DNA of 64,000 nt from Geopseudomonas sagittaria. Its GTDB lineage: Bacteria; Pseudomonadota; Gammaproteobacteria; Pseudomonadales; Pseudomonadaceae. The stretch is from assembly GCF_900115715.1 (NCBI RefSeq), contig NZ_FOXM01000009.1, forward strand, positions 1 through 64,000, read 5' to 3'. The first letter of the stretch is position 1, and each line of letters begins with the position of its first letter. Under the pieces are notes generated by a model. That model saw nothing but the letters and a program-made list of their open reading frames with translations, did not search any database and was not told the origin of the DNA. The position numbers and the translations under genes were made by a program. Below, in pieces: positions 21,900-22,506 of this stretch.

Positions 21900-21929
21900 C
21901 AAAAAAATAGGCGACCGAAGTCGCCTTAA
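21900..21929 (-). terminator. Rho-independent terminator of the CcoM-like gene
   Basis: On the minus strand a 7-bp stem (AGGCGAC with GTCGCCT, 21909-21926) with a UUCG-type tetraloop is followed by seven T. It is 37 bases beyond the small gene at 21966. The core GGCGACCGAAGTCGCC is identical to the terminator at 36852. Confidence 0.9.
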
Positions 21930-21965
21930 ATGCCTTGCGTGCTCGTGTATCGGGAAGGATCGGCG

Positions 21966-22082
21966 CTACTTCTTGCTGCCTTTCTGTGCGTCCTTCCAGA
22001 CGAAATATCCAAAACCTCCCAAGAAGCCGGCAGTCAACACCACGATTACGATGCCTGCGATTACTACTTCATCCATAAACAT
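21966..22082 (-). CDS. ccoM: CcoM-like small subunit of cbb3 cytochrome oxidase
   Basis: A 38-residue protein with a single transmembrane helix (about residues 6-27) followed by YFVWKDAQKGSKK. This matches the layout and wording I remember for CcoM, the small subunit needed for assembly and stability of cbb3 oxidase in P. stutzeri (short N-terminus, VVIAG start of the helix, GFGYF-WKD exit, basic tail). GGAGA lies 8 bases before the ATG. It has its own terminator, and upstream a one-mismatch Anr/FNR box spaced correctly from a -10, which fits a microaerobic oxidase subunit. The main cco operon is not in the window. The assignment rests on memory of a very short sequence. Confidence 0.78.
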   Translation of the reverse strand: MFMDEVVIAGIVIVVLTAGFLGGFGYFVWKDAQKGSKK

Positions 22083-22117
22083 GGTTTGTTTCTCCGCGCT
22101 GTCTTGCTGTTGGAGCC

Positions 22118-22123
22118 AGAATA
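22118..22123 (-). promoter_or_regulatory. -10 element of Anr-dependent promoter
   Basis: TATTCT on the minus strand, 28 bases from the centre of the Anr box at 22145-22158. That is the class II activator spacing (box near -41.5) and predicts a transcript start near 22111, about 29 bases upstream of the ccoM-like ATG. Confidence 0.6.
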
Positions 22124-22144
22124 CCCATGCGCTCGGCCGGGAAA

Positions 22145-22158
22145 TTGACCCGGATCAA
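22145..22158 (-). promoter_or_regulatory. Anr/FNR box upstream of ccoM-like gene
   Basis: The minus strand reads TTGATCCGGGTCAA, which differs from TTGAT-N4-ATCAA at one position. Anr is the oxygen-sensing FNR homologue of Pseudomonas that switches on high-affinity oxidases at low oxygen. Confidence 0.72.
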
Positions 22159-22344
22159 CAGGCACCCACGACCTTGCCGGCGAAGGCAGGCAAATCCTGA
22201 CGCAGATCAACGGAAGCACGGGCTGGCGAACGCGGCAGCCTCCGCCGATGATGGGCGCGTGCGCGCACGCCCCTGCACAGGCGGGTCGATAACGGTCATG
22301 GACGGCGCGGCGCGTCCAGGGCGGACACCGGCCGGCGAGCGGGC

Positions 22345-22506
22345 TCAGCGCTTCTTCGGCTTGCCGCGGGCCTTGCTCTTCTTCTTCGCGGTCAGCGGCA
22401 GCGCCTGCTCGAACGCCTGGCGCATGTCCTGCAGGCGCTTCTCGTGCAGGTCGTGGATGCGCCGCTCGCGCTCGGCGGCGAAGTCGACCAGGGTTTCGTC
22501 ACTCAT
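22345..22506 (-). CDS. Small basic protein of unknown function, divergent from rapA
   Basis: A 53-residue protein with an acidic start (MSDETLVDFAAERERR), a charged central helix likely to form a coiled coil, and a Lys/Arg-rich tail (KKKSKARGKPKKR). AGGAG lies 7 bases before the ATG and the codon use is normal for the genome, so it is probably real. The basic tail suggests nucleic-acid binding. It is divergent from rapA with 167 bases between; a small hypothetical gene occupies this place in P. aeruginosa as I recall. Confidence 0.72.
   Translation of the reverse strand: MSDETLVDFAAERERRIHDLHEKRLQDMRQAFEQALPLTAKKKSKARGKPKKR

Follow-up and report, generated by a model that had tools for sequence, protein, structure and literature searches.

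Within the 64,000-nucleotide stretch of Geopseudomonas sagittaria DNA analysed here (the window), positions 21966–22082 of the minus strand carry an open reading frame with an ATG start that encodes 38 amino acids, a single hydrophobic stretch followed by a basic tail. A ribosome-binding site, GGAG, is present in the sequence at 22092–22095 of the same strand, 9 nt 5' of the ATG. The position of the ORF, its one membrane helix and its tail are as an earlier note on this DNA had given them, and so is the strong terminator said to follow the gene: an intrinsic terminator at 21901–21926 (minus strand), with a 7-pair stem (21926–21909) and then a run of T, folds as such. Upstream, a minus-strand gene (22345–22506) encodes a 53-aa basic, lysine-rich protein and is syntenic in 77 of the 80 homologous loci described below. 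The neighbour on the other side, which we take to be the helicase gene rapA, is divergent here; it was found in 71 of the same 80 loci, and in all but one of them (70) it is divergent too.

Sequence comparisons support the identification of this ORF as ccoM, which encodes the cbb3 oxidase small subunit CcoM; the earlier note had suspected this likeness and suggested a search against CcoM. In that search the 38-aa product passed the cut-off of the NCBIfam CcoM equivalog NF041600 over its full length (65.5 bits, cut-off 40), and its sole convincing match in the PDB is chain N of entry 5DJQ (5djq_N; residues 1–35 of 36, E 5e-11). That chain is labelled 'putative uncharacterized protein' in its own PDB entry, and we take it to be the CcoM chain of the Pseudomonas stutzeri cbb3 oxidase. 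The paper that discovered CcoM is said to give it a role in assembly or stability of the cbb3 oxidase. In the relevant passages of two other papers, the P. stutzeri subunit has 36 aa (PMC10433244) and CcoM is stated to have been predicted initially as an ATP-dependent helicase (PMC9264385). Resemblances of the product to NapE, YLATT and other Pfam/NCBIfam entries (E 0.014–0.15) fall under the cut-offs of those entries and were rejected, and PHROGs gave no match at E 0.1. The likeness to CcoM is further borne out by purifying selection on the ORF and by its co-occurrence with ccoN.

For the measurement of selection and conservation, the best 80 of 148 loci collected by protein match alone were used. 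The 71 distinct ORF sequences among these 80 loci have a median dN/dS of 0.14 (239 usable of 300 sampled pairs), which indicates purifying selection, and the ccoM frame has 3125 synonymous codons among the 5796 that differ, compared with 540/5866 and 683/5736 in the two other frames.

The promoter region contains an Anr box, TTGATCCGGGTCAA, at 22145–22158 (minus strand), with one mismatch to TTGATNNNNATCAA and none to TTGATNNNNRTCAA, and a -10 element, TATTCT, at 22118–22123 (minus strand; columns 35–40 after the start of the box are partly conserved in the 80 loci). The earlier note had paired this one-mismatch Anr/FNR box with this -10 element, and the pairing stands: 28.5 bases separate the centre of the box from the first base of TATTCT, and if transcription starts at 22111 (minus strand), as the spacing of the Anr box and the -10 element predicts, the box is centred near -40.5. 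TTGATNNNNRTCAA occurs 18 times in the 4.6-Mb genome when both strands are counted (12 places), against 2 for the reversed control, and TTGAYNNNNRTCAA starts 70–87 bp 5' of the ATG in all 80 loci (the best 80 of 148), so the proximal box is not a chance occurrence. A second set of 56 genomes includes 30 with CcoM over cut-off, and TTGAYNNNNRTCAA is exact in 29 of these and has one mismatch in the other. The conserved box, the two Fnr-family regulators over cut-off in this genome, and the requirement of Anr for the P. aeruginosa PhrS transcript, which section 2.10 of PMC8395346 describes together with a PhrS peptide of 37 aa, support control of the ccoM/phrS transcript by Anr, as far as sequence can tell. 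A generic sigma-70 scan found no promoter at the locus, as expected for an activator-dependent -10 element.

The interpretation offered by the earlier note, CcoM under Anr control, is thus supported in both of its parts; it is incomplete in that the transcript is also PhrS and that CREG and the tandem arrangement of Anr boxes had been missed. The Rfam model of the PhrS RNA (RF01673) matches the minus strand at 21900–22124 over the whole model (1–212 of 212) with 144 bits (gathering score 37, E 7e-37); phrS of P. aeruginosa PA7, which has a 37-codon ORF inside, scores 204 bits. The predicted transcript, about 22111 to 21901 (minus strand), has 211 nt, and the folding of the predicted 212-nt RNA has no special stability (z -1.0). 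The 12-mer GCACGCAAGGCA at 21931–21942 (minus strand), 3' of the ccoM ORF and at +170 to +181 from the predicted start, was assigned as CREG, the PhrS seed, from its position and the PhrS model. RNase MRP and H19 were also returned by Rfam, far under their gathering scores, and were dismissed.

In the passages of the literature that deal with it, PhrS is an oxygen-regulated sRNA with reported roles in quorum sensing, biofilm formation and CRISPR immunity, and is given as 213 nt long with CREG at +169 to +182 (PMC9308961) or as 190 nt long (PMC8545117). The function of its peptide is called "elusive" in the PhrS section of a 2021 review (PMC8395346), and a 2022 review likewise gives the peptide no known function (PMC9308961). 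Text searches for PhrS with CcoM, judged by title, and for PhrS with cbb3, judged on the PhrS passages of PMC12491237 and PMC3272035, showed no paper that connects the two (the CcoM discovery paper and the 2011 PhrS paper were outside their reach).

RF01673 scores over cut-off in 31 of the 56 genomes, and its score is partly driven by the ORF. The score is 67.4 bits for G035 and 44.6 for G039, two genomes of other families with no CREG in view, and the ORF-less G012 and G028 reach only 27.8 bits, under the gathering score; it is therefore CREG and the terminator that give independent evidence for the RNA. At one locus (L338, genome G161) residues 1–35 of 5djq_N are encoded unchanged, CREG is present and PhrS scores 158.9 bits, so in at least one genome the crystal subunit has its coding sequence within a PhrS homologue.

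Could this be an ordinary protein gene, with CcoM as its sole product and with CREG and the terminator forming a conserved mRNA 3' end? The strong purifying selection on the ORF would fit such a gene, as would the CcoM genes of other families (G035, G039 and G041) that have no CREG within 70 bases after the stop, two of which still score as PhrS. We nevertheless think it unlikely, given the full-length PhrS match at this locus, the exact CREG 12-mer GCACGCAAGGCA in 68 of the 80 loci (core CGCAAGGC in 77) where most of the preceding 3' UTR columns carry less than 0.6 bits (77 loci, aligned on the core, whose invariance there is by construction), and the 13 genomes described below that keep the Anr box, CREG and terminator and have neither a CcoM ORF nor ccoN.

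If the transcript is both mRNA and sRNA, as we prefer to think, CREG would be its pairing seed. In 9 of the 80 loci (L119, L121, L122, L124, L137, L148, L150, L164 and L170) CREG reads GCTCGCAAGGCC with the core kept, a variant that may mark a changed target; these nine come from two Halopseudomonas, one Pseudomonas saliphila and six metagenome bins. The exact complement of CREG, TGCCTTGCGTGC, is found in 45 of the 56 genomes, where many of the matches are phrS itself; the G. sagittaria genome has one such site besides phrS (C38:75784). A single exact 12-mer scan of the 56 genomes found no conserved CREG target.

The earlier note had remarked that the gene stands alone, away from any cco operon, and indeed its contig (C20) has no match to either ccoN or ccoO. 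Fragments of both are present on other contigs: a ccoN piece at a contig end (C42:95159–95950, 439.8 bits, under cut-off because it is cut there) and a ccoO piece that covers only model positions 94–176 (C44:52383–52631, 121.9 bits). Perhaps the assembly broke in tandem cco operons. The ccoN match is preceded, at a distance of about 100 bp, by an exact FNR box, TTGATTTGTATCAA.

Among the 56 genomes, 29 of the 30 that have CcoM over cut-off also have ccoN over cut-off, and the remaining one is G. sagittaria with its 439.8-bit piece. In one member of another family (G039) CcoM lies about 9 kb from ccoNO. A further 15 of the 56 have ccoN over cut-off and no CcoM over cut-off (13 of them from other families; G009 and G032 are from the same family), so that cbb3 oxidases either can dispense with CcoM or carry one that has diverged beyond recognition. 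We then counted 158 Pseudomonadaceae genomes, in which the CREG-terminator pattern is present in 119 and ccoN in 140 (called at E 1e-60; 136 are over the curated cut-off). The CcoM ORF, for which 20 bits against an HMM of alignment A1 were required, is present in 102 of 104 genomes with ccoN and in 2 of 15 without it (Fisher p 1.4e-13, which is not to be taken literally, since the genomes are related and the losses few). This count takes in all 119 of the 158 genomes with an exact CREG-terminator pattern and leaves out 39 (36 with ccoN, 3 without), with the two copies in G016 counted as one genome. G076 and G019 each have a second match to the pattern, but the 350 bases upstream of it contain no Anr box; these two matches were taken for chance and dropped.

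Seen from the RNA side, the CREG-terminator pattern is kept in 15 of the 18 genomes that lack ccoN (the three without it are all of genus g12), which suggests an old base-pairing target for CREG outside P. aeruginosa. The exact CREG pattern is absent from 36 of the 140 genomes that bear ccoN. On this evidence from sequence comparison, the best explanation would be that the ORF and RNA functions are both old in the Pseudomonadaceae and separable. The protein gene may reasonably be seen as the older part, to which CREG would have been added within the Pseudomonadaceae.

All 13 of the genomes that have neither ccoN nor a CcoM ORF keep CREG, the terminator and an exact upstream Anr box. The two genomes that lack ccoN and keep the ORF, G111 (L277) and G123 (L280), have it in a diverged form, with 41.0 and 43.9 bits against NF041600. 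ORF loss or shortening is seen in three genera without ccoN (g6, g10 and g13). In genus g6 there are two diverged ORFs (G111 and G123), one relic (G105, L279; recognized by eye, PhrS at 63.6 bits) and ten genomes without an ORF; this genus is possibly a series of stages of ORF loss. A short RNA of 69–75 nt, with Anr box and -10 element, is predicted in the ten ORF-less g6 genomes. These short forms consist of a 5' hairpin, CREG and the terminator, and at least three dissimilar hairpin sequences occur among them. Some g6 forms, such as that of G012, have an Anr box that extends into the 3' part of an upstream ORF, which makes the role of the box less certain there. In the genome G016 (L243, no ccoN) about 500 bp separate two PhrS-like copies (C2:162403–162589 and 163085–163314), each with an Anr box, a short hydrophobic peptide (22 and 28 aa), CREG and the terminator; one scores 54.1 bits against RF01673, over the cut-off, and the other 35.2, just under it.

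The two exceptions that have ccoN and CREG and no CcoM ORF, G009 (L245) and G074 (L258), indicate that a genome can have cbb3-type genes and no visible CcoM. G074 would also make a short RNA of the same make-up as those of g6, about 75 nt long as judged by sequence, with Anr box and -10 element. G032, which has ccoN and lies outside the 119, has tandem Anr boxes and a 22-aa remnant of the ORF (23.5 bits, under the CcoM cut-off).

Such ORF-less forms would suit the opposite simplification, in which the gene is mainly an sRNA and its ORF incidental, much as the PhrS literature, in its passages on the transcript, mostly treats it. It would agree too with the work on CRISPR control in P. aeruginosa, where, in the relevant part of PMC6700203, CREG is required and works without the ORF, and the ORF has no effect and alone fails to restore control. 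An incidental ORF would hardly show a dN/dS of 0.14, encode residues 1–35 of a crystal subunit inside a PhrS homologue, or be lost in step with ccoN, and we regard this reading as very improbable.

A second, Anr-like box, TTGATCTGCGTCAG, lies farther upstream at 22197–22210 (minus strand; centre about -92.5). A distal box of this kind is present 50–52 bp upstream of the proximal one in 65 of the 80 loci (60 of the 65 end in G instead of A), and the other 15 have no distal box with fewer than four mismatches; mononucleotide shuffling gives an expectation of 0.07 of 80 loci with such a box at no more than one mismatch. Among the 36 columns that immediately precede the proximal box, 32 have less than 0.6 bits, and invariant positions in the two boxes go up to 2 bits. 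The tandem pair occurs once in the G. sagittaria genome, at ccoM. It is present in 24 of the 56 genomes and, by coordinates, is at the phrS locus in 22 of them (20 genomes that have CcoM over cut-off and the two genomes G016 and G032); in G040 and G045 it is elsewhere, and G023 has one additional pair elsewhere. The distal box is absent from 10 of the 30 CcoM genomes. CREG loci with a CcoM of at least 25 bits have the exact proximal box in 103/103 cases and the distal box in 98/103.

What the distal box might do depends on which precedent is followed. It could be a second activating site, as in class III promoters, of which E. coli ansB is an example; the spacing of about five helical turns would, on general knowledge, also suit contacts with the alpha subunit of polymerase. 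This possibility concerns the promoter only and is compatible with a dual-function gene. The parts of the E. coli literature that bear on such positions speak against it and lead us to rate it as the less probable of the two precedents, short of even odds: a second FNR site at -85 to -95 represses strongly, and the -93.5 site of the yfiD promoter down-regulates (PMC11264516), where the other yfiD site is at -40.5 (PMC3688515). By analogy with that repressing upstream FNR site, whose position is like that of the distal box, we infer that the distal, weaker box probably tunes the output of Anr, and most likely damps it when Anr is fully active, which would give a peak of expression at low, non-zero oxygen; the damping is the weakest step of the argument.

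We conclude, at a probability of roughly 0.85, that the locus is one dual-function gene, phrS/ccoM, with an Anr-switched transcript that is both the mRNA for CcoM and an sRNA; the identity of the ORF and of the RNA, the boxes, the selection and the joint loss with ccoN are all read directly from the genomes. At low oxygen, Anr bound at the box near -40 would switch on a transcript of about 210 nt, which ribosomes would translate into CcoM, a single-helix subunit of the cbb3 oxidase, and the same RNA, ending in the CREG seed and the terminator, would act as an sRNA through base pairing, which is published for CREG of P. aeruginosa PhrS, with putative targets in this species. Lineages without ccoN would mostly have shed the ORF and kept the Anr box, CREG and terminator. 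One observation runs against this low-oxygen model: according to PMC10433244, P. stutzeri CcoN and CcoP are more abundant aerobically than at low oxygen. More broadly, we lean towards the view that the orphan peptide of PhrS is CcoM; that in most Pseudomonadaceae one Anr-driven transcript is the source of a high-affinity oxidase subunit and a low-oxygen sRNA; that tandem Anr boxes give it a micro-oxic peak; and that with the loss of cbb3 the gene has been stripped repeatedly, in its most reduced form to just a 5' hairpin with CREG and a terminator, an RNA of about 70 nt that is purely an sRNA.

CcoM was found as an oxidase subunit, independently of PhrS, and each of the two is known; what is new, as far as literature searches show, is that they come together in one gene, that its boxes stand in tandem and that it has ORF-less forms. 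If they are one gene, the PhrS peptide gains a function, a phrS deletion may damage the oxidase and a ccoM deletion may remove an sRNA, so that the phenotypes of both need re-reading, and two simple point mutants would be enough to tell the functions apart.

Three known systems may be compared with this locus. The P. stutzeri CcoM is alike in its equivalog-level, full-length match and in the identity of residues 1–35 of 5djq_N inside another PhrS homologue; it differs in that it is described as a protein, and the passages concerned do not speak of a regulatory RNA when they deal with it. The P. aeruginosa PhrS shares the whole-model match, the Anr box, CREG, the terminator and very nearly the length (211 nt predicted here vs 213 nt in the PhrS passage of PMC9308961), and differs in the activation of pqsR, which is described for P. 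aeruginosa. The promoter of E. coli yfiD, as described in the papers cited above, has its two boxes at -40.5 and -93.5, much as they are here (about -40.5 and -92.5), in front of an unrelated gene and with FNR as the regulator there and Anr here.
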